64,000 bases of DNA from the IMG/VR virus record IMGVR_UViG_3300021963_000083, positions 1-64,000 of that record, one strand, 5' to 3'. Source of the stretch: a virus. The notes beneath the pieces are model-generated. The model had not been told where the DNA came from. It made no database searches and was given only the letters and a program-made list of their open reading frames with translations. Positions within the stretch are counted from its first letter, which is position 1. Each line of letters starts with the position of its first letter. This document shows, one piece after another, positions 907-62,530 of the stretch. The translations under genes and the position numbers were made by a program.

Positions 907-1033
907 TCTTTGGTATCGCTCGACAGGGCAAAAGCTCATTCTAGCTAATATCTCGAAGAATCACATGGACTACGGAATGAGCCCAGCTCAGCATCTACGT
1001 GCTAAGCAGGAACGCGCAGAAAATAATTCTTGA
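881..1033 (+). CDS. Small hypothetical protein (50 aa)
   Basis: A 50-residue basic product starting MERKRKQRDLWYRSTGQKLI overlaps the end of the DUF1289-like gene by 26 bases in another frame. It ends in TGA, which is part of the -35 box of the tmRNA promoter. No family is recognised. Support is positional: short overlap, same strand, and a gap that would otherwise be empty. There is no clear ribosome binding site, though the upstream AAAAAATGGAAAG region is purine-rich. Confidence 0.45.
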   Translation: MERKRKQRDLWYRSTGQKLILANISKNHMDYGMSPAQHLRAKQERAENNS

Positions 1034-1058
1034 CTTTTGGTGTAACTTTTGTTATATC
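1030..1058 (+). promoter_or_regulatory. Promoter of the permuted tmRNA
   Basis: TTGACT (1030-1035), 17 bp spacer, TATATC (1053-1058). A start near 1065 would place the 5' end of the precursor just before the acceptor piece. Confidence 0.65.
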
Positions 1059-1064
1059 AGATAC

Positions 1065-1345
1065 ATAGTCGCTGACAGCCGACAATAAAAGCGGACAAGA
1101 CCGGAGTTCGATTCTCCGCGGCTCCACCATAGACACACCACTGTTTGATCGACAGAGTATGGTACTAACTGGATCGTATGCCAGTAGATAGGGTTCGAGT
1201 CCCTTGGTGTGTCTTTGATGGGGCCGACCTGGGTTCGATTGACGTGTAATAGGAACGCCGAGACTATTGACTGGCAAAGTGCCACTAAACTAAATGCTAA
1301 CGATAACGATAGCTTTGCAGATATCCGCCTAGCGGCATAATCTAC
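1065..1345 (+). ncRNA. ssrA: Circularly permuted (two-piece) tmRNA
   Basis: The tmRNA rescues stalled ribosomes and adds a degradation tag. The 3' part comes first: a T-arm with stem CGGAG/CTCCG and loop TTCGATT, then CGGCTCC and ACCA ending at 1129. The 5' part follows at 1220 with GGGGCCGACCTGGGTTCGA, which matches the tmRNA 5' consensus. GGGGCCG (1220-1226) pairs with CGGCTCC (1119-1125) over seven base pairs with one G-U. The tag frame runs 1296-1340: GCT AAC GAT AAC ... GCG GCA TAA, giving ANDNDSFADIRLAA. A short hairpin CCGC-CTA-GCGG overlaps the tag end. The order acceptor piece, loop, coding piece is the permuted form known from alphaproteobacteria, some cyanobacteria and some betaproteobacteria; the ANDN tag start is alphaproteobacterial. 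The exact outer ends and the P2 helix are not resolved. Confidence 0.88.
1132..1213 (+). tRNA. tRNA-like element inside the tmRNA intervening segment, isotype unclear
   Basis: The segment between the two tmRNA pieces has an 8-bp terminal stem GACACACC/GGTGTGTC and a T-arm AGGG-TTCGAGT-CCCT, so it looks like a tRNA. The middle is atypical. One possible D-arm is CTGT/ACAG, and the anticodon stem could be ACTGG/CCAGT (8-base loop) or TGGTA/TGCCA (14-base loop). No CCA follows the stem (CTTTGATG instead). An 8-bp acceptor with an extra G:C pair recalls tRNA-His, but no GTG anticodon is present. It could be a decayed tRNA or a processing signal. Confidence 0.45.
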
Positions 1346-1399
1346 ACGGGTACGGCTCCACCTTGGAACAGAACGGGCCATTTTTCATAGGGAGATAAA

Positions 1400-8771: not shown

Positions 8772-10166
8772 ATGCCAAATACAATTCAATTAAGAAGGTC
8801 GGCTACTGCAAATGCGGTGCCGACCACCGCGCAGCTAGCCCTTGGTGAGCTGGCTATTAATACGACTGATGGTAAGTTATACTTAAAGAAAAACGTTAGT
8901 GGTACAGAATCAATCGTAGAAATAGGTGCTGGTGGGGCAAGCATTAGTGTATCTGATACAGCCCCATCATCCCCAGGTAATGGCTCACTATGGTGGAACA
9001 GCACTGTTGGTGTTCTAAAAATTTACTATAATGATGGTACATCTAGTCAATGGGTCGATGCCTATGCGACACCTGTAGGCGTTACATCTGGCGGAGTGGC
9101 ATACCCACAGAACGTCCAAAACGGCAACTACACTCTCGTTTTGGGTGACGCTGGTAAGCATATTTACTCCAGTAATACCGGCGCACAGACCATTACAATC
9201 CCGACAAACGCGTCGGTGGCCTTCCCAATCGGGACGCTGGTTACGATTGTGAACGATGGTACTACTGATATTTCGCTTTCTGTTACAGGAGTGTCTGTCT
9301 ATAATAACGGTGCTATTTTTACTCTTGGTAATCCACAGATAGCTTCCGGCATGGCGGTTCAGCTTATTAAAACTGGAACTAATGCTTGGAAAGCAACATT
9401 CGGCACAATGCTTAACATTATACCTCTTCAGTATCTTGTTATTGGTGGCGGCGGTGGTGGTAACTCATCGAATGGCGGTGGTGGCGGCGCTGGCGGGTAT
9501 GTAACTGGTTCTCAAACATTTACCGGAGGAACCATTGCGGTAACTGTAGGTGCTGGTGGGAGCGTGAACGTCAATGGCGCTAATTCATCCTTGGGTGCAA
9601 TTTCTACTGCAATAGGTGGTGGTCGCGGCGGCGGTGATGGAGGCGGCGGCGTTACTGGAAGCTCTGGCGGCTCTGGCGGTGGCGGTGGTGGCTATGGGCC
9701 TTCTGCTGGTGGCTCAGGTACTGCTGGACAAGGTAATAATGGCGGCAATAGCGGTGACGGTTATGGGTGTGCAGGTGGTGGAGGCGCAGGTGAAGCTGGG
9801 CCAAACGGAGCGCAATATACACCAACCCGTGGAGGAAATGGCCTCGCATCATCAATTACAGGTACATCTGTAACACGCGCTGGTGGCGGTGGCGGCGGAA
9901 ATATTTTTGGGGCTCCCAAGGCTGGTGGTGATGGCGGCGGCGGTGCTGGTGGCGGTTCAGGAAGCGCTGCTGTATCAGGCACAGCCAATACAGGCAGCGG
10001 TGGTGGCGGACAGGCACAGACAGGCACTGGCGGTTCTGGTGGCTCTGGTGTAGTTATCATAAGTTCGCCTTTCGCCGCGGGTTCAACCACAGGCTCACCA
10101 ACAATTACAACATCAGGTGGGAACACAATTTACCAATTCAACTCATCTGGCACTATTACATTTTAA
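8772..10166 (+). CDS. Tail fibre with glycine-rich receptor-binding region (464 aa)
   Basis: The N-terminus IQLRRSATANAVPTTAQLAL then GELAINTTDGKLYLKKN is the usual fibre-attachment repeat. From about residue 220 the protein becomes glycine-rich (runs such as GGGGGGNSSNGGGGGAGGYV), ending GSGVVIISSPFAAGS and a small beta end. Glycine-rich polyproline-II-like segments are known as host-range tips, for example in T-even gp38. The end is clearly related to the end of the product at 14484. A GGAGGGAGG ribosome binding site precedes the start. It is likely a receptor-binding fibre. Confidence 0.8.
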   Translation: MPNTIQLRRSATANAVPTTAQLALGELAINTTDGKLYLKKNVSGTESIVEIGAGGASISVSDTAPSSPGNGSLWWNSTVGVLKIYYNDGTSSQWVDAYATPVGVTSGGVAYPQNVQNGNYTLVLGDAGKHIYSSNTGAQTITIPTNASVAFPIGTLVTIVNDGTTDISLSVTGVSVYNNGAIFTLGNPQIASGMAVQLIKTGTNAWKATFGTMLNIIPLQYLVIGGGGGGNSSNGGGGGAGGYVTGSQTFTGGTIAVTVGAGGSVNVNGANSSLGAISTAIGGGRGGGDGGGGVTGSSGGSGGGGGGYGPSAGGSGTAGQGNNGGNSGDGYGCAGGGGAGEAGPNGAQYTPTRGGNGLASSITGTSVTRAGGGGGGNIFGAPKAGGDGGGGAGGGSGSAAVSGTANTGSGGGGQAQTGTGGSGGSGVVIISSPFAAGSTTGSPTITTSGGNTIYQFNSSGTITF

Positions 10167-14483: not shown

Positions 14484-15455
14484 ATGGCACTACCAACGAG
14501 CACAATCAGCATGTCTCAGGTTAATACAGAACTGGGCCGTAGTGCTACTGCTTCTATAAATCTAAATGAATCGGCTGTGCGCTCGTTGGCAGGTGTTGCC
14601 TCGGGGGCTATTTCTATGAATAACCTTCGAGGTAAGTCCGCGGCACCAGCTACATATACAGCATCTTACTTAATTGTTGCTGGTGGTGGTGGCGGTGGTA
14701 CGTGGCAAGGGGGCGGAGGTGGAGCAGGCGGTCTAAGGTCTGGCTCTACTACATTAAATAGAAATACAGTGTACACAGTTACCGTCGGTGCTGGAGCTGC
14801 TCTAGTTACCAACAGTGCTGGTAATAACGGCTCTGGATCTTCTGCTTTAGGCGTCTCTACAACAGGCGGCGGTGGCGGCGGCTATGGAGGCGGCGCTGCA
14901 GGAAAAAATGGTGGTTCCGGCGGCGGTGGCGGTGGATATAATTATGTTGCCAGTACTAATGGCAGTGGAATAAGTGGTGAAGGTACATATGGCGGAACCG
15001 GTAGCGATGCTGATAGCGGTGGCGTTTACGGTGGCGGCGGGGGCGGCGGTAGCTTATATCCTGGACAAGGTGGTTCTGACTTTGCCGGAGGTGATGGCGG
15101 TAGTGGTTCAACATCAAGTATTACCGGCTCATCTATAGTATATGCCGGTGGTGGTGGTGGAAGTAGTTATGGTACTAGCTCACCAGGAAATGGTGGAGAT
15201 GGTGGAGGCGGATCAGCAGGCACAAACTTTGTAGCTGGGCAACCTGGGTTTACAAACAGAGGCGGCGGCGGTGGCGGTGGATTTAATGCCGGAGGTGGTT
15301 CGACTAACGCTGGTGGCGCAGGAGGTTCTGGCGTAGTTATTATTTCAGTACCAACATCATCCTACACGGGAACTACAACCGGATCACCAGTAATCACAAC
15401 AAGTGGTGCAAATACTATTCTTAAATTTAATTCATCAGGAAGTTACACAGCGTGA
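14484..15455 (+). CDS. Second glycine-rich tail protein (323 aa)
   Basis: The N-terminus MALPTSTISMSQVNTELGRS with a SLAGVASGAISMNNLRGKS segment is a short attachment module seen in several phage fibre tips. The rest is a glycine-rich domain (YLIVAGGGGGGTWQGGGGGA, many GGGGGG runs), ending GVVIISVPTSSYTGTTTGSP. The last 60 residues are clearly related to the end of the product at 8772, so the two fibres probably arose by module exchange. It is the last gene of the fibre cassette. Confidence 0.75.
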   Translation: MALPTSTISMSQVNTELGRSATASINLNESAVRSLAGVASGAISMNNLRGKSAAPATYTASYLIVAGGGGGGTWQGGGGGAGGLRSGSTTLNRNTVYTVTVGAGAALVTNSAGNNGSGSSALGVSTTGGGGGGYGGGAAGKNGGSGGGGGGYNYVASTNGSGISGEGTYGGTGSDADSGGVYGGGGGGGSLYPGQGGSDFAGGDGGSGSTSSITGSSIVYAGGGGGSSYGTSSPGNGGDGGGGSAGTNFVAGQPGFTNRGGGGGGGFNAGGGSTNAGGAGGSGVVIISVPTSSYTGTTTGSPVITTSGANTILKFNSSGSYTA

Positions 15456-15540: not shown

Positions 15541-15623
15541 GAGGGCGTGGCGAAATGGTAGACGCAAGAGACTTAAAATCTCTCGGTTCATCCGTGCGGG
15601 TTCGAGTCCCGCCGCCCTTACCA
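15541..15623 (+). tRNA. tRNA-Leu (anticodon TAA)
   Basis: The acceptor GAGGGCG pairs with CGCCCTT, followed by A and encoded CCA. The anticodon stem is GAGA/TCTC-like with loop TTAAA centre, giving TAA. The variable arm is long as usual for leucine tRNAs (CGGTTCATCCG), and the T-loop is TTCGAGT. It decodes UUA and UUG, which suit this AT-rich phage. Confidence 0.9.
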
Positions 15624-15624
15624 T

Positions 15625-15715
15625 AGTCCTATAGCTTAAAGGTAGAGCGGTCGGATTTATATCCCGAAGCCCAGATTAGGGATCGGTCTCGGTTCGAATC
15701 CGAGTAGGACTACCA
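15625..15715 (+). tRNA. tRNA with long variable arm, apparent anticodon TAT
   Basis: The acceptor AGTCCTA/TAGGACT plus ACCA, D-arm GCTTAAAGGTAGAGC and T-arm CTCGG-TTCGAAT-CCGAG are clear. The anticodon loop centres on TTTATAT, giving TAT (Ile, AUA codon), but base pair 31-39 is an A-C mismatch. The variable region is about 20 bases with its own CCC-AGATTA-GGG hairpin, as in class II tRNAs (Leu, Ser, Tyr), which does not fit isoleucine. The tRNA call is firm; the isotype is not. Confidence 0.75.
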
Positions 15716-15729
15716 GTTTTGGAGGAAGT

Positions 15730-15912
15730 ATGAAAGTAGTTATCACAAGTAGTTATCCTCTTCGGGATGGAAATATTACTTCTTATTACAGTTTTCCCGT
15801 ATACTCTACTGATATAGAGGAAACTCTGTGCAGACAGCTAGAGTTCCTTAAGCAGTATGATAAATTCTCTCTCGAAATGAAGATTACACAGGGATCTGAA
15901 AAAAGTTCTTGA
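15730..15912 (+). CDS. Small hypothetical protein (60 aa)
   Basis: The product starts MKVVITSSYPLRDGNITSYY and has an acidic middle (YSTDIEETLCRQLEFLKQY). A GGAGGAAG ribosome binding site precedes the ATG directly after the second tRNA. Its stop lies inside the -35 box of the next promoter. No family recognised. Confidence 0.6.
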   Translation: MKVVITSSYPLRDGNITSYYSFPVYSTDIEETLCRQLEFLKQYDKFSLEMKITQGSEKSS

Positions 15913-15937
15913 CATTATAGTATAACTTAGCTATAGT
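15909..15937 (+). promoter_or_regulatory. Sigma70 promoter
   Basis: TTGACA (15909-15914), 17 bp, TATAGT (15932-15937), then a leader of about 20 bases with AAAGGAAAG before the ATG at 15963. Confidence 0.8.
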
Positions 15938-15962
15938 ATGTTTTCAATGAAAGGAAAGCCCA

Positions 15963-16229
15963 ATGAACATCGAAGCTATTCGAAACCTGCTAAAAACAGA
16001 TTTAGTTACTGTAGTCTTTACCAAAAAGGACGGGACTAAGCGCGAGATGCATTGCACTACTATTTCTGAGTATCTCCCTGAGATAGCTCGTAGTATTACT
16101 AATATGCCACCAAAAGAAGATGTTGTAACTGTATGGGATCTAGAGCAGAACGCTTGGCGTTCATTCTTGCTCGATTCTATCGTATCTATTGAGACGGATG
16201 ATTTTAAATATGTGGTTGAACGCGCGTAA
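15963..16229 (+). CDS. DUF2693-like small protein (88 aa)
   Basis: The product contains VTVVFTKKDGTKREMHCT and, near the end, VVTVWDLEQNAWRSFLLDSI. I know this SH3-like pattern (FTK.DG..R.M.CT ... VWD.E...WRSFR.DSI) from T4-like and marine phages, usually labelled DUF2693. The function is unknown; the fold suggests a small binding module. It has its own promoter and ribosome binding site and overlaps the following gene. Confidence 0.7.
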   Translation: MNIEAIRNLLKTDLVTVVFTKKDGTKREMHCTTISEYLPEIARSITNMPPKEDVVTVWDLEQNAWRSFLLDSIVSIETDDFKYVVERA

Positions 16230-16638
16230 GGCAATTCTAGCGTCTAGTGAACACTCGTCGATTTACATTGGCTGTGACTCCTTACGTATCCCTAAAAAGA
16301 ATAAGGCTCTGTACTCTACAGTAGTAGTTCTACACATGGACTCAAAGCATGGATGTAAGATTTTCCATAATCAGATAACTGTTCCAGACTATGGTCAGAT
16401 GCGTCCACGACTTCTTATGGAAGTGCAATACGCTCTTGAGGCTTTCTACGCTATCGAAGATATAGTAGGAAATCGACGTCTAGAGGTTCATCTAGATGTT
16501 AACCCGGATCCTCGCCATGCAAGTAACGTAGTTACTAGTGAAGCACTAGGGTGGGTTAGAGGACTAGGTATTCAGGCTAGAATTAAGCCAGATAGTTTCG
16601 CTGCTACTACAGCGGCCGACCATTTCGTAAGACACTAG
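16210..16638 (+). CDS. RNase-H-like protein of the YkuK/DUF458 family (about 142 aa)
   Basis: The visible pattern is SSIYIGCDSLRIPKKNKALY, then YSTVVVLHM, EVHLDVNPDPRHASN and a KPDSFAATTAADHFV end. The D of IGCDS, the D of HLDVNP and the terminal D/H match the acidic positions of DUF458, a predicted RNase-H-fold family related to B. subtilis YkuK. Nuclease activity on RNA or DNA is inferred. The start is uncertain: ATG at 16210 is used; ATG at 16198 is possible. Both overlap the previous gene. The last base of its TAG is the first base of a tRNA. Confidence 0.75.
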   Translation: MWLNARKAILASSEHSSIYIGCDSLRIPKKNKALYSTVVVLHMDSKHGCKIFHNQITVPDYGQMRPRLLMEVQYALEAFYAIEDIVGNRRLEVHLDVNPDPRHASNVVTSEALGWVRGLGIQARIKPDSFAATTAADHFVRH

Positions 16639-16714
16639 GTCCCGTAGCTCAGCTGGATAGAGCACGAGCCTTCTAAGCTTGGGGTCACAGGTTCGAATCC
16701 TGTCGGGATCACCA
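16638..16714 (+). tRNA. tRNA-Arg (anticodon TCT)
   Basis: Acceptor GGTCCCG/CGGGATC, D-arm GCTCAGCTGGATAGAGC, anticodon stem CGAGC/GCTTG with loop CTTCTAA, T-loop TTCGAAT, encoded CCA. It reads AGA/AGG. The first base is shared with the TAG of the preceding gene. Confidence 0.93.
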
Positions 16715-16724
16715 TTTCTAATAT

Positions 16725-16799
16725 TCCCTGATGGCGCAGCGGTAGCGCAGTTGACTGTTAATCAATTGGTCGGAGGTTCGAATCCTTCTCAGGGAGCCA
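16725..16799 (+). tRNA. tRNA-Asn (anticodon GTT)
   Basis: Acceptor TCCCTGA/TCAGGGA with G and encoded CCA, D-arm GCGCAGCGGTAGCGC, anticodon stem GTTGA/TCAAT with loop CTGTTAA, T-arm GGAGG-TTCGAAT-CCTTC. Confidence 0.93.
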
Positions 16800-16807
16800 G
16801 GACATTT

Positions 16808-16978
16808 ATGATTGAATATGCACTTTTAGGGTACGCCCTTACAATTCTTATATTTTTTGGTTGGGTAATAAAGGATGCCAAAAGGTACTCTCCTTCATTC
16901 ATCCTAGCTGTTACCTTATTTAGCTTATTTTGGCCAATAGTTTTGGTCATATATTTGCTAGATAACAAAGAAGCCTAG
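16808..16978 (+). CDS. Small membrane protein between tRNAs (56 aa)
   Basis: The product starts MIEYALLGYALTILIFFGWV and has a second hydrophobic stretch FILAVTLFSLFWPIVLVIYL, so two membrane segments joined by a basic loop (KDAKRYSPS). It lies between tRNA-Asn and tRNA-Met with only a few bases on each side. There is no clear ribosome binding site. Function unknown. Confidence 0.55.
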   Translation: MIEYALLGYALTILIFFGWVIKDAKRYSPSFILAVTLFSLFWPIVLVIYLLDNKEA

Positions 16979-16979
16979 T

Positions 16980-17055
16980 ACTCCTGTAGCTCAATGGTTA
17001 GAGCTGACCGCTCATAACGGTTAGGTTAGGGGTTCGAGTCCCTTCGGGAGTACCA
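16980..17055 (+). tRNA. tRNA-Met (anticodon CAT)
   Basis: Acceptor ACTCCTG/CGGGAGT, D-arm GCTCAATGGTTAGAGC, anticodon loop CTCATAA flanked by ACCG/CGGT, T-loop TTCGAGT, encoded CCA. The first acceptor pair A-T is intact, so it is not a typical initiator. It could also be tRNA-Ile2 with lysidine-modified CAT. Confidence 0.9.
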
Positions 17056-17074
17056 TTATTTTCATTACTATTAT

Positions 17075-17150
<76 letters not shown>

Positions 17151-17183
17151 GTAACAATAAATAGCTAGTTATATACTAACTCT

Positions 17184-17257
17184 TGCCCCTTCCTCTAATG
17201 GTAAGAGAGCGGACTTTGAATCCGTCAATTTAGGTTCGAGTCCTAGAGGGGCATCCA
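17184..17257 (+). tRNA. tRNA-Gln (anticodon TTG)
   Basis: Acceptor TGCCCCT/AGGGGCA, discriminator T, encoded CCA, D-arm CCTCTAATGGTAAGAGA, anticodon stem CGGA/TCCG with loop CTTTGAA, T-arm TAGG-TTCGAGT-CCTA. The acceptor resembles proteobacterial tRNA-Gln. Confidence 0.92.
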
Positions 17258-17278
17258 AAAAGAAAGGAGAACTAATAT

Positions 17279-17494
17279 ATGTGGCGTCTATGGTGTAAAG
17301 CACTTGGTCAAAAGGCTACAGAATGTAATAAAGAGTCAGATAGAGTAGCTATTATACGCACTATAATTCTAGTCGCATATATGATTGCTAACGCCTTCAT
17401 CGTGGCGGGTGTCATTAGACACTGGAACGATGGTAATAATACAGCCGAACTTCAGATTGAAGTAGAAGTTCAAGAAAAACAATTCATGCCGTAA
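17279..17494 (+). CDS. Small conserved membrane protein (71 aa)
   Basis: The product starts MWRLWCKALGQKATECNKES and has one membrane helix IIRTIILVAYMIANAFIVAG followed by an acidic soluble tail. Very similar proteins occur in cyanophages and other T4-like marine phages with no assigned role. AAAGGAG lies 8-10 bases before the ATG. It starts 21 bases after the tRNA-Gln. Confidence 0.65.
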   Translation: MWRLWCKALGQKATECNKESDRVAIIRTIILVAYMIANAFIVAGVIRHWNDGNNTAELQIEVEVQEKQFMP

Positions 17495-17529
17495 GGGTGA
17501 ATAAATAATCTCGCTTAAGGAGGAGATAT

Positions 17530-17967
17530 ATGATGAATAATGATTTTGCACGTTTCTTTGTTGGGTACGACAAAGTACTAGATAAACTAACTAATATTGC
17601 GGATCAATCCGCCAGACTAATACAGAATTATCCACCGTTTAATCTTAAAAAAGTCGATGAGAATAAGTACGCTATCGAGATAGCTCTAGCTGGCTTTAGT
17701 AAAGAAGATGTTCAGATTGAAATAGATGGCTCAAAGTTAGTTATTACAGGGAACGTAGAATCTAAAGATGCGGAAGATACTTTTGTGTTTAAGGGAATCT
17801 CTAATAAGCCGTTTACCCGAGAGTTTACACTAGCAGACAATGTTGAAGTTCAGGGAGCTGAATTTATTAATGGTATGCTAATAATTGCACTCACCACTAT
17901 AACGCCACAATCTAATAAGAAAAAGATTAATATTAAAGAAGCAGCCAAAGCTAAAACCGTGTCTTAA
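17530..17967 (+). CDS. Small heat-shock protein (Hsp20 / alpha-crystallin family)
   Basis: The 145-residue product has the alpha-crystallin domain at about residues 38-125: PPFNLKKVDENKYAIEIALAG, then FSKEDVQIEIDGSKLVITG and the beta strands to NGMLIIALTT. The C-terminal IxI-like element is weak (KKINIKEAA). Family members are ATP-independent holdases. Phage copies are common in cyanophages, where they may protect scaffold or capsid proteins; that role is not shown here. AAGGAGGAG precedes two ATGs; the first is used. Confidence 0.9.
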   Translation: MMNNDFARFFVGYDKVLDKLTNIADQSARLIQNYPPFNLKKVDENKYAIEIALAGFSKEDVQIEIDGSKLVITGNVESKDAEDTFVFKGISNKPFTREFTLADNVEVQGAEFINGMLIIALTTITPQSNKKKINIKEAAKAKTVS

Positions 17968-17977
17968 AACTAGCCTT

Positions 17978-18021
17978 ATGTCAATTTTATTGTTGACATG
18001 TGTGCTGATTTTTGCTAGATT
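17978..18021 (+). promoter_or_regulatory. Promoter with its -35 box in a dyad
   Basis: TTGACA (17993-17998), 17 bp, TAGATT (18016-18021). The -35 box is the right arm of an inverted repeat ATGTCAA (17978-17984) / TTGACAT (17993-17999) with an 8-base spacer, which could be an operator or a weak hairpin after hsp20. Confidence 0.65.
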
Positions 18022-18046
18022 GTTAATCTAATTTGAAAGGAAGGTT

Positions 18047-18271
18047 ATGACTGAACCAAAACTAATGGAAATCTGGTGTGAAGGCGATCCCCGTCGCGAT
18101 TACACCGCCTGCCATCTTGGGTATGGAAAGGGAACCACACTAGCGGAAGCTTGTGAAGATTGGTCCTCACGAAATAACTACTTTAAAGAGCACTATAATC
18201 CACACAATATGACGTATTGTGGGTGCAAAGTATTCGATAATGAATCGGATGCGAGGGAATTGTATAACTAA
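18047..18271 (+). CDS. Hypothetical protein (74 aa)
   Basis: The product starts MTEPKLMEIWCEGDPRRDYT and has four cysteines, including YCGC near the end, plus GKGTTLAEACEDWSSRN, which looks like a helix after a glycine turn. I recall similar unassigned phage proteins that combine EIWxEG and a C-terminal CxCKxFDxE.ARE; the family has no function. AAGGAAGG precedes the ATG. tRNA-Trp follows directly. Confidence 0.6.
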   Translation: MTEPKLMEIWCEGDPRRDYTACHLGYGKGTTLAEACEDWSSRNNYFKEHYNPHNMTYCGCKVFDNESDARELYN

Positions 18272-18274
18272 TGC

Positions 18275-18349
18275 GTCGGTGTAGTGAAATGGCTATCATT
18301 ACGGTCTCCAAAACCGTCGTTCTGGGTTCGAATCCCAGCACCTTCGCCA
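18275..18349 (+). tRNA. tRNA-Trp (anticodon CCA) with imperfect acceptor stem
   Basis: The anticodon arm ACGGT-CTCCAAA-ACCGT and T-arm CTGGG-TTCGAAT-CCCAG are perfect and CCA is encoded. The acceptor GTCGGTG/CACCTTC has mismatches at pairs 2-71 (T-T) and 3-70 (C-T). The D-stem is GTGA/TCAT. Confidence 0.85.
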
Positions 18350-59890: not shown

Positions 59891-62530
59891 TTAAGCGTAC
59901 TTAAGACCGATAACTGACTTAGCGTTTGGAATGATTTCCTTGAAGCCAAGACGCTGAGTTGTTGCAAGAACCTTGTGCTGATTTTCAACTAGGTACTGGC
60001 TCTCAACTGTTACGCCACGCTGACGTGGAACAACGAAGTTACGTGTGTTAACTGCTAGCGCGTGGTACTTACCAGTTGCTGCTGCTGGGAATTCGTCGCA
60101 AACCATTACGGATGAACCGAAGATCTGACCTACTTCACCAGTTAGCTTTGTAGCCTGCTGGTTAACTAGGTTGAAGTCCTGGAATTCAGCATCTTCTAGT
60201 AGTTCGAAGTAGCACTGCTGTGAAACGATGTATGCAACGTCATTTGGACGTAGACCATACTTGCCCATGTTCTTACGTAGGCCTAGTAGAGCAGCTGCGG
60301 TTAGCGGTGTTGCTGTACCAGCGGCTGTTACTGTGCGGCTCTGTGTAGAAGCGTACTTTAGAAGACCTGATGCAGCTGTTGCTGAAACTGAAGGATATGC
60401 ACCATCAGCGTGTCCACCAAGAAGGATTAGGTTTTCAACACCACGTGCGTGCTGACGGATCATGCCTTCGCGTAGTAGTGGAAGAATTGGGATAATTCCA
60501 TCTTCTTCTGTTTCGTTACCTAGGTAGCTCTTAGCAATCATCTTGATTGTGCGTAGTTCGATTTCAGTTAGTGCTATACCATCTTCTGAACCTACTGCAA
60601 CGCCACGTGAATCAAGAGTACCAGCTGGTGCTGTACCTGGAAGCGCAGCATTACCTGTGATAGTTGCATAGTTGGTGTCTGGCATGATCGGTAGAACCAT
60701 GCTTGCAGTTGTCATCGCGATTTCACGGAACATAGGAGCTAGGATTAGTTCTAGCTGGATATCACGTTCGATATTGATTGAAACTTCGCGCTCGAAGTTA
60801 TCGCTTGATACAGCAACGGATGACATTGTGTTGACCTTCTGAAGAAGATTCTTTGCAAACTCTGTGTTATATCCCTTTCCAGTGATACGACCTAGTAGGA
60901 ATGCATCGTCCATTTCCTGGGCGAATTGCTTCTGCCATTCGTTGCTGTTGCCGCCACGGTCAGCGAATACACGCTTGCTGTTAGCAATGTTCTGTAGTTC
61001 AGCTGACTTTTCAGCTAGTTCTGTACGTAGACCTTCGAGCTTTGTATTTAGGTCTGTGTTGTCATCCTTGAAGCGCTTTTCTAGTTCTGCGAATAGCTTT
61101 TCTTCTGAAGATGCGATAACTTGTGCTACGATCTTTTCGTTAGCAGCCTTTTCGTCAGCAGCCTTCTGTGCAGCAGCTGCATCAGCGGCAGCCTTTGCTG
61201 CCATTGCGTCTGCAATGCCTTTCTGAATCTGTGCGTTAATTGTTTCGTCGTCCATTTTAATTTTCCTCGACGCCATTTCAGCGCCCTCTGATGAGCCTCC
61301 GGTTTCAGCGAGAGGCTGACCACCTAGAGCATTTTCGAATTGTTTTCTAAAAGTAAGATAGTCGCTTTGACTATCGAATGATTTAGCTACAGAGAATGTA
61401 GCGTCTTGATTACAAGGTATAGAAACTACTGATACCTCAAGTAATTCTGCATCTTTAACGATTAAGCCATCAACTGACTTATCGTATTCCGCATCTTTAA
61501 TTAAAAAGCCTACAGAGAATGTCGAAAGAACTCCTTCTTTGACTAAGTTGTGAATATCTCCAGCACTCTTGCTGATGATTCCCTTGATCTTTAGTCCTGT
61601 ATTATCTGTAAGTATTTCTACAACCTTGCCTATTGGTTTATCATAATTATGATTGAATAGTAAGATTGGATTGGTTTGAAAGTTTTTTAGGCCTCCCTTA
61701 GTCCATGCAGTAGATAAGATTCTATCAGCTGAACGGTCAATAGCGTTTGTGCTAGCATAACCTGCTATAATAAGCTCACCGTCACTATCTTCGTGCATGT
61801 CCTTGATGGAGGAATCAAGCTTAAATATTTTATTCACACTATTCTCCTCTGGAGCAGGCACATTTTCGATACCTTTTCTCTTAACTTTAGTAAGCGTAGA
61901 AAAACGATGACCTACAAGAGTATCAGTTTCTACTTCATCCTTATATATCCGAATGAGTGCCGCGGGGTCTTCTTTAGTTGCATCTATGGAGAAGCTGCTA
62001 TCAGGAATACCTAAAGTGCCTTCTCTCATAATGTGCTCTATACGGCCCATTGCCTTTCCGCCAGAAGAGTTCCACTCTACAAAATCACCAAGTTTTAAAT
62101 CTTTTGGACCTGCTGTTTCATGTACGTCTTCTAGACCGTCCTCGTCTTCATCTTCAGAGTATTCTTTAGTATAGTCTAGGGATTTACCTTCTAGCCTATC
62201 TAGCGTCTCACTCTTGGCTCTAGCCCATGTCTGGCCGGGGTCTCCACCCCAAAGTGCCCAAGCAACTCTACCGTTAGAAGGAAAACCAGGCTCTCCAGGA
62301 CTAAATCCTTCGCCTTGTTTATCTACTTCGTGTCTGCTGAAAAAGCTATGCATCCTACGTACAGTACTTGGTGATAGTTCTTGCTTATTTACAAGTTGCC
62401 TTGCACGAGCTAGACCTACCGGAGTACCTCCGTCGAATCCATCCTTTCTCCAGTCGAGAGCTTTTTGTGCCTCTTTTGCCATGCCATCGGTAGGAGTTAA
62501 ATCAATATCTTCTCCACCTACTCTCGCCAT
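59891..62530 (-). CDS. Prohead protease joined in frame to HK97-fold major capsid protein (879 aa)
   Basis: Domains in order. Residues 1-115: a helical DNA/packaging-associated domain with RQLVNKQELSPSTVRRMHSFF and PSNGRVAWALWGGDPG. About 147-217: a Tudor-like domain (LGDFVEWNSSGGKAMGRIEH). About 240-385: S78 prohead protease with H294 (LLFNHNYDKPIG) and S339 (LSTFSVGF). From M426: a coiled coil rich in Ala/Lys/Glu (delta or scaffold domain), then the HK97-fold capsid (RDIQLELILAPMFREIAMTT, ALPGTAPAGTLDSRGVAVGS, RQHARGVENLILLGG). A ribosome binding site sits before M426, so capsid can also be made alone. The protease should cut off residues up to the mature capsid. Confidence 0.88.
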   Translation of the reverse strand: MARVGGEDIDLTPTDGMAKEAQKALDWRKDGFDGGTPVGLARARQLVNKQELSPSTVRRMHSFFSRHEVDKQGEGFSPGEPGFPSNGRVAWALWGGDPGQTWARAKSETLDRLEGKSLDYTKEYSEDEDEDGLEDVHETAGPKDLKLGDFVEWNSSGGKAMGRIEHIMREGTLGIPDSSFSIDATKEDPAALIRIYKDEVETDTLVGHRFSTLTKVKRKGIENVPAPEENSVNKIFKLDSSIKDMHEDSDGELIIAGYASTNAIDRSADRILSTAWTKGGLKNFQTNPILLFNHNYDKPIGKVVEILTDNTGLKIKGIISKSAGDIHNLVKEGVLSTFSVGFLIKDAEYDKSVDGLIVKDAELLEVSVVSIPCNQDATFSVAKSFDSQSDYLTFRKQFENALGGQPLAETGGSSEGAEMASRKIKMDDETINAQIQKGIADAMAAKAAADAAAAQKAADEKAANEKIVAQVIASSEEKLFAELEKRFKDDNTDLNTKLEGLRTELAEKSAELQNIANSKRVFADRGGNSNEWQKQFAQEMDDAFLLGRITGKGYNTEFAKNLLQKVNTMSSVAVSSDNFEREVSINIERDIQLELILAPMFREIAMTTASMVLPIMPDTNYATITGNAALPGTAPAGTLDSRGVAVGSEDGIALTEIELRTIKMIAKSYLGNETEEDGIIPILPLLREGMIRQHARGVENLILLGGHADGAYPSVSATAASGLLKYASTQSRTVTAAGTATPLTAAALLGLRKNMGKYGLRPNDVAYIVSQQCYFELLEDAEFQDFNLVNQQATKLTGEVGQIFGSSVMVCDEFPAAATGKYHALAVNTRNFVVPRQRGVTVESQYLVENQHKVLATTQRLGFKEIIPNAKSVIGLKYA
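61253..61268 (-). promoter_or_regulatory. Internal ribosome binding site and start of the capsid part
   Basis: On the minus strand GAGGAAAATTAAA precedes ATG GAC GAC (ATG at 61253-61255). GAGG is nine bases from the ATG. Starting here gives a 454-residue product (59891-61255) equal to scaffold plus capsid. Confidence 0.7.

Follow-up and report, generated by a model that had tools for sequence, protein, structure and literature searches.

The locus at positions 1065-1382 on the plus strand of a viral DNA stretch of 64,000 nucleotides (nt), positions 1 to 64,000 of IMG/VR virus record IMGVR_UViG_3300021963_000083 and hereafter called the window, is probably a functional phage-borne ssrA gene of the alphaproteobacterial, circularly permuted type, in which the intervening segment (IVS) between the two pieces of the transfer-messenger RNA (tmRNA) serves as an exchangeable cargo slot. 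An earlier note made from the letters of this DNA had read a two-piece tmRNA with an alphaproteobacterial tag here, and the covariance models bear it out. The Rfam model of permuted tmRNA (RF04321, tmRNA_permuted; cut-off 47 bits) matches 1067-1340 over its whole length with 92.6 bits (E 1.4e-16), and the alphaproteobacterial model (RF01849, alpha_tmRNA; cut-off 50 bits) matches 1026-1382, also at full length, with 69.9 bits, the best of its clan and preferred over the beta and cyano models. The window gene thus resembles members of both families in matching at full length above the gathering scores, but typical bacterial members of RF04321 score about 115-165 bits, and ARAGORN made no tmRNA call at the locus even with its tmRNA options on. 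The order of the parts is exactly the one the earlier note laid out: the T-arm (1102-1118) and CGGCTCC-ACCA (1119-1129) come before GGGGCCG (1220-1226), that is, the acceptor 3' strand with its CCA lies upstream of the 5' strand, with which it forms seven pairs including G3-U70. The tag frame opens on an alanine resume codon and runs through ANDNDSFADIRLAA (1296-1337), which has a hydrophobic end, to a TAA stop (1338-1340).

These parts are conserved. The gene is present in all 13 of the closest virus records (one copy is cut by a contig end), and its syntenic place is the same in those relatives compared with the window by BLAST. Across 14 sequences, 98.8% of the cells in the T and acceptor stems are paired, and both bases have changed in 7 of the 12 pairs. 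Sliding the partners as a control lowers the covariation score from 0.510 to 0.096 or less and leaves 49-61% of all cells paired. The acceptor stem alone is paired in 100% of its cells and has three pairs changed on both sides, so that the seven-base pairing of distant ends drawn in the earlier note is backed by compensatory changes among related phages. The G3-U70 wobble, which confers alanine identity, is invariant in these 14 sequences. The tag follows the pattern AND(N)...(L/V)AA in ten relatives, the tags found being ANDNDSFADIRLAA, ANDNDVAFALAA, ANDNVAFALAA, ANDNNAYEGLALAA, AANDNSSVEFALAA and ANDNDVAFAVAA. With both models scoring, the acceptor strands paired and the tag frame conserved, neither of the outcomes that the earlier note had named as speaking against it was seen. 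As to the gene's own promoter, which the earlier note proposed, TTGACT-17 nt-TATATC or a near match precedes the CCA end by 70-72 nt in each of the ten relatives compared, preserving place and spacing, but the element agrees with the consensus at 9 of 12 positions and a consensus scan makes no call, and we treat it as a putative promoter. The idea that a second CGGCTCC (1353-1359) is left over from a 3' end of the standard form was rejected; this repeat of the motif is probably a coincidence or pseudoknot sequence, and in the relative L114 it is kept although it cannot pair, because the acceptor there is GGGGGCG.

The IVS, which is absent from the earlier note, is structured and the most variable part of the locus, and it turns over as one unit. 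Over 990-1130 contig L019 and the window are 100% identical, and the identity resumes at 1216, at 95% for a further 1.6 kb; both have the same tmRNA halves and tag, but the IVS of L019 is an unrelated 53-nt hairpin. In L113, too, this 53-nt segment lies between identical tmRNA halves. A 37-nt core of this 53-nt IVS is intact in 8 viral contigs, always between the CCA and GGGG of a permuted tmRNA. In L124 and L116 the whole IVS is 100% identical between exons that are 69% alike, and comparable pairs are L143 with L140/L173 (IVS 99%, exons 53%), L197 with L198 (95% and 70%) and L132 with L180 (100% and 60%). Near-identical IVSs therefore occur in tmRNAs 53-70% alike, indicating that inserts and exons have separate histories. 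Two compensated stem pairs occur in the L120/L125 group, in which a 25-nt loop is unchanged. The 53-nt cassette as a whole (L019, L116, L120, L124-L130) combines this near-invariant loop, CGATAGAGGGTTCAGTYGCCGAAAA, with a covarying stem; it looks like a sequence-specific RNA element and matches no Rfam family.

Folding of the window's own IVS, taken with a base or two on each side, gives -31.6 kcal/mol (z -2.57). In this fold a closing stem of 10 bp encloses three hairpins and a T-arm of the tRNA type (AGGG-TTCGAGT-CCCT), which directly adjoins the closing stem as it would adjoin an acceptor stem. The 13-base T-arm GGGTTYGAGTCCC was found in three IVSs only among the 9,052 nt of viral IVS searched: those of the window, L162 and L108/L174 (one contig, retrieved twice). 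As a general feature of viral IVSs, a T-arm hairpin was rejected (3 of 86, against 0.6 in shuffles), and a search of IMG/VR with the pattern of an anticodon-like arm plus T-arm returned no match to an IVS of the window's type. Taken alone, the IVS receives no tRNA-model or ARAGORN call, its best Rfam match being tRNA-Sec with 11.8 bits (E 5.5), and a canonical tRNA gene was rejected. No known riboswitch, ribozyme or other Rfam RNA matched in this IVS or those of the relatives, and a group I intron was set aside, the T loop being intact and the Rfam scans yielding no intron family. Descent from one of the phage's eight tRNAs is not convincing (local score 17.0, shuffle maximum 16.0); the T-arm of its tRNA-Met matches the IVS at 15 of 15 positions and is the only part of any phage tRNA that does. 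The insert is a 90-nt cloverleaf-like RNA with a T-arm, and it is probably either a captured element, namely a degenerate tRNA or a mimic of one, or a spacer whose structure assists the processing enzymes; we rank these possibilities ahead of a released functional RNA, and that ahead of junk.

A survey in which permuted tmRNAs were collected from viral contigs and bacterial genomes by a single search pattern for the alpha-type 5' end indicates that viral inserts are the longer: the median IVS is 93 nt (29-266) in viruses and 36 nt (25-184) in bacteria (Mann-Whitney p 8e-15). A separate, class-wide RF04321 search of 115 alphaproteobacterial genomes points the same way: the median span is 217.5 for its 106 matches above cut-off and 277 for 26 viral genes taken as a convenience sample. 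The uninterrupted terminal stem of viral IVSs has a median of 10 bp (4 in shuffles), and all five IVSs tested fold better than their shuffles, with z from -2.6 to -3.8. Side by side with these stands one Rhodobacteraceae genome bin (G035, locus L316) with eight permuted tmRNA matches above cut-off, probably phage contigs binned with their host.

Some inserts are coding. An open reading frame (ORF) that is 20 or more codons long and preceded by a Shine-Dalgarno (SD)-like motif is present in 18 of 76 viral IVSs and 0 of 78 bacterial ones, with 1.25 +/- 1.2 expected from shuffled viral IVSs. One family, MKNPLV...WSICAD, recurs in eight IVSs (L151, L154, L168, L176, L178, L186, L187 and L209); its ORF takes its stop codon, TGA, from the conserved TGAT|GGGGG edge, and the ratio of non-synonymous to synonymous polymorphism (pN/pS) is 0.14-0.63 in 28 of 28 pairs, pointing to purifying selection. 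In the same eight IVSs an SD-led ...LGDxDEEP... peptide frame precedes and overlaps the conserved single-helix WSICAD frame. The insert ORF of L207 codes for a member of the DUF6356 family (PF19883; 46 bits against a cut-off of 24.4). In the cultured phage Melnitz (MZ577097 46096-46200, locus L374) the 142-nt IVS contains an unannotated SD-preceded ORF, MFKWLSKTRLVVITRDYFRERNRKADAKIPKYLSG..., which is homologous to an ORF in the L192 IVS; among 50,697 phage records, translated matches to it lie only under the SsrA feature of four Melnitz genomes. The IVS of L111/L115 has a 57-amino-acid (aa) ORF with a CxC...CCxxC pattern that extends into the tmRNA body; the pattern resembles that of Bfd-type iron-sulphur proteins, and the ORF has no Pfam or PHROG match.

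The anatomy suggests how such a gene may work. A precursor would be transcribed from the gene's own promoter, and host tRNA-processing enzymes would be expected to cut it so that one piece ends in CCA at 1129 and the other begins with GGGGCCG at 1220, the 7-bp acceptor stem keeping the two pieces together as a tmRNA. This RNA should be charged with alanine through G3-U70, act together with host SmpB and enter stalled ribosomes, thereby rescuing them during infection and adding the ANDND...LAA tag to the stalled products. The roles proposed in the earlier note, namely continued ribosome recycling, replacement of the host tmRNA and tagging with an end of the phage's choice, are candidates. No SmpB was found in the 84,655-base phage record, and the tmRNA would therefore have to use the host protein. 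Because the insert would be removed anyway, sequence could be carried there cheaply, given kept edges and a closing stem: the excised insert would vary freely as long as the closing stem folds and the CCA and GATGGGG edges are untouched, and phages would fill the slot with structured RNAs or small genes. We further suggest, tentatively and as a possibility that falls short of an even chance, that transferable cassettes land in the IVS and are carried within a stable-RNA gene: small RNAs or proteins freed by host tRNA processing and having their own jobs in infection, the one here being a tRNA-like RNA of about 80 nt. Candidate jobs would be, for example, those of tRNA-like decoys, regulatory or anti-defence RNAs and small membrane proteins.

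The plainest competing explanation is an ordinary phage copy of a host ssrA whose IVS is junk, with the closing hairpin as the sole need, neutral drift elsewhere and the likeness to tRNAs and genes arising by chance. The closing stem is indeed the sole common feature, short hairpins make up many of the viral IVSs and most of the bacterial ones, and the IVS of the window has no Rfam match. Yet this explanation is already strained by inserts that stay nearly unchanged while the tmRNAs around them diverge and by the purifying selection on the ORFs; a loop of 25 nt held constant above a covarying stem, the curated Pfam match, the folding of the five tested IVSs and the recurrence of the GGGTTYGAGTCCC T-arm in so little sequence are likewise hard to reconcile with drift, and we consider it unlikely. 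Several points nevertheless weigh against an exchangeable cargo slot. The window's insert is known from one assembly only and matches no Rfam family, and its likeness to that of L162 is weak (score 24.0, 99.9% null 23.5). About 14% of the alphaproteobacterial matches have spans that suggest an IVS of 60 nt or more, and the bacterial control is mostly Rhizobiales and unmatched to the phage hosts, while the viral sample appears marine-rich. Furthermore, the IVS of the bacterial locus L308 (Rhodobiaceae metagenome-assembled genome MED766), a chromosomal contig judging from its neighbours PrmA, UvrD, fumarase and SspB, holds a 49-aa membrane-like ORF, and coding inserts are therefore not strictly viral.

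A genuine tRNA gene nested between the tmRNA pieces would account for the T-arm beside the closing stem, the 5-bp anticodon-like arm and the four-nucleotide variable region of the fold, and an intact nested tRNA-Ala in one permuted tmRNA provides a precedent (PMC11915505). However, ARAGORN finds a tRNA in no viral IVS, Rfam offers nothing beyond the tRNA-Sec match given above, and the element lacks U8/A9 and a CCA, has 8 nt in its anticodon loop and contains one hairpin too many, which together make a real tRNA very improbable. That the whole locus is a decaying, functionless relic, a by-product of host DNA acquisition, would fit the phage's want of an SmpB and the common integration of genomic islands at host ssrA (PMC11915505); with acceptor, T-arm, resume codon, tag and stop all intact, and with covariation and conserved synteny across divergent relatives, we regard it as the least probable of these explanations. 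A phage ssrA gene with an exchangeable insert accounts for the evidence best.

Two-piece tmRNAs figure in textbooks as an oddity, with an intervening segment that is regarded as waste. The gene itself is not new, because phage two-piece tmRNAs have been described already (Melnitz, tmRNA database): 53, mostly aquatic, were counted by ARAGORN (PMC9004378), and 79 unique phage tmRNA sequences of all forms are on record (PMC11915505). The gene of Melnitz and the pelagimyophages is likewise a permuted alpha-type ssrA in a phage with a promoter upstream and, in Melnitz, a long IVS (142 nt) (PMC9004378). The window phage differs in belonging to another group, its DNA polymerase being nearest to T5-like ones (about 44%), in having no glutamine riboswitch such as the one after the Melnitz tmRNA (not in the IVS), and in an IVS that is a non-coding fold where that of Melnitz holds an unannotated ORF. 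The nearest published precedents for IVS inserts are one nested tRNA-Ala and one repeat element (PMC11915505). The permuted tmRNA of GCA-2688965 shares with the window a tRNA-like element inside the IVS, but its tRNA-Ala is intact, whereas the window element is merely tRNA-like and lies in a phage. Some tmRNA genes contain group I introns, a number of which have homing endonuclease genes; these too are removable inserts that can carry an ORF, but they sit in the T loop and self-splice (PMC11915505); the window insert lies between ends that tRNA processing would make anyway, and no splicing would therefore be needed. The tmRNA-like RNA of mycobacteriophage DS6A, another phage-encoded form, lacks a tag frame and inhibits host tmRNA on expression in E. 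coli (PMC11915505), while the window's tag is complete.

What looks new is thus the IVS as an exchangeable slot, not the gene; a full-text literature search returned no report of coding IVS inserts, with most subscription papers outside its scope and novelty accordingly unproven. If the proposal is true, a stable-RNA gene doubles as a carrier of small genes and RNAs that ordinary annotation skips, as it did the Melnitz ORF under 'SsrA', and release is built in without any need for splicing. Inserts swapped in nature between identical exons provide material for testing the effect of the insert on tmRNA processing and infection, and the persistence of circularly permuted tmRNAs, a long-standing question, becomes directly testable. 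The parts of the window gene are listed in the table.

Table. Parts of the permuted ssrA gene in the window
Feature	Position	Strand	Basis and remarks
Promoter-like TTGACT, 17-nt spacer, TATATC	1030-1058	+	Kept in ten sequences; putative transcript start about 1065
Acceptor piece (3' half, tRNA-like domain)	1065-1129	+	RF04321 and RF01849, covariation; 5' end predicted
T stem; T loop	1102-1106/1114-1118; 1107-1113	+	Part of acceptor piece
Acceptor 3' strand; ACCA	1119-1125; 1126-1129	+	Part of acceptor piece
Intervening segment (IVS), 90 nt	1130-1219	+	Structured, exchangeable; removal in processing expected
IVS closing stem, 5' strand AGACACACCA	1131-1140	+	Fold; 10-bp stem
Three hairpins in IVS (1141-1155, 1156-1166, 1168-1185)	1141-1185	+	Minimum-energy fold, one sequence
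Anticodon-arm-like hairpin, 5-bp stem, 8-nt loop	1168-1185	+	Minimum-energy fold, one sequence
tRNA-type T-arm hairpin AGGG-TTCGAGT-CCCT in IVS	1190-1204	+	Fold
IVS closing stem, 3' strand TGGTGTGTCT	1205-1214	+	Fold; followed by TTGAT before GGGG
mRNA-like piece	1220-1382	+	RF01849 match up to last model position 1382; 3' end approximate
Content of mRNA-like piece: GGGGCCG, D-loop analogue, tag frame, conserved 3' motif CACCTTGGAACAGAA	1220-1226 (GGGGCCG)		
Tag frame ANDNDSFADIRLAA + TAA	1296-1340	+	Resume codon GCT 1296-1298

The gene content of the phage is of the tailed-phage type, including a portal protein, tail fibres, DNA polymerase, ThyX, RNR, SbcCD and an NAD-dependent ligase. The DNA polymerase has about 44% identity to its nearest relatives, from Aeromonas and Enterobacter phages, which we take to be of the T5-like type, and the replication region gave no nucleotide match to close isolates in the phage collection. 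The eight phage tRNA genes (Leu, Ile, Arg, Asn, Met, Thr, Gln, Trp) lie at 15541-18349 of the window, away from the tmRNA. On the minus strand, 59891-62530 encodes an 879-aa protein that combines a Peptidase_S78 prohead protease domain (residues 243-384) and a Hva1_TUDOR domain with a capsid-like match at 733-864 and looks like a fusion of protease and capsid protein. Two genes of phrog_2295 (unknown function), at 8772-10166 and 14484-15455, flank the large tail-fibre gene and may represent a duplication. Finally, a human-gut phage contig (L003, MT835879) carries at 1181-1531 an unannotated tmRNA of the standard form, which resembles the window gene in its T-arm and CCA.
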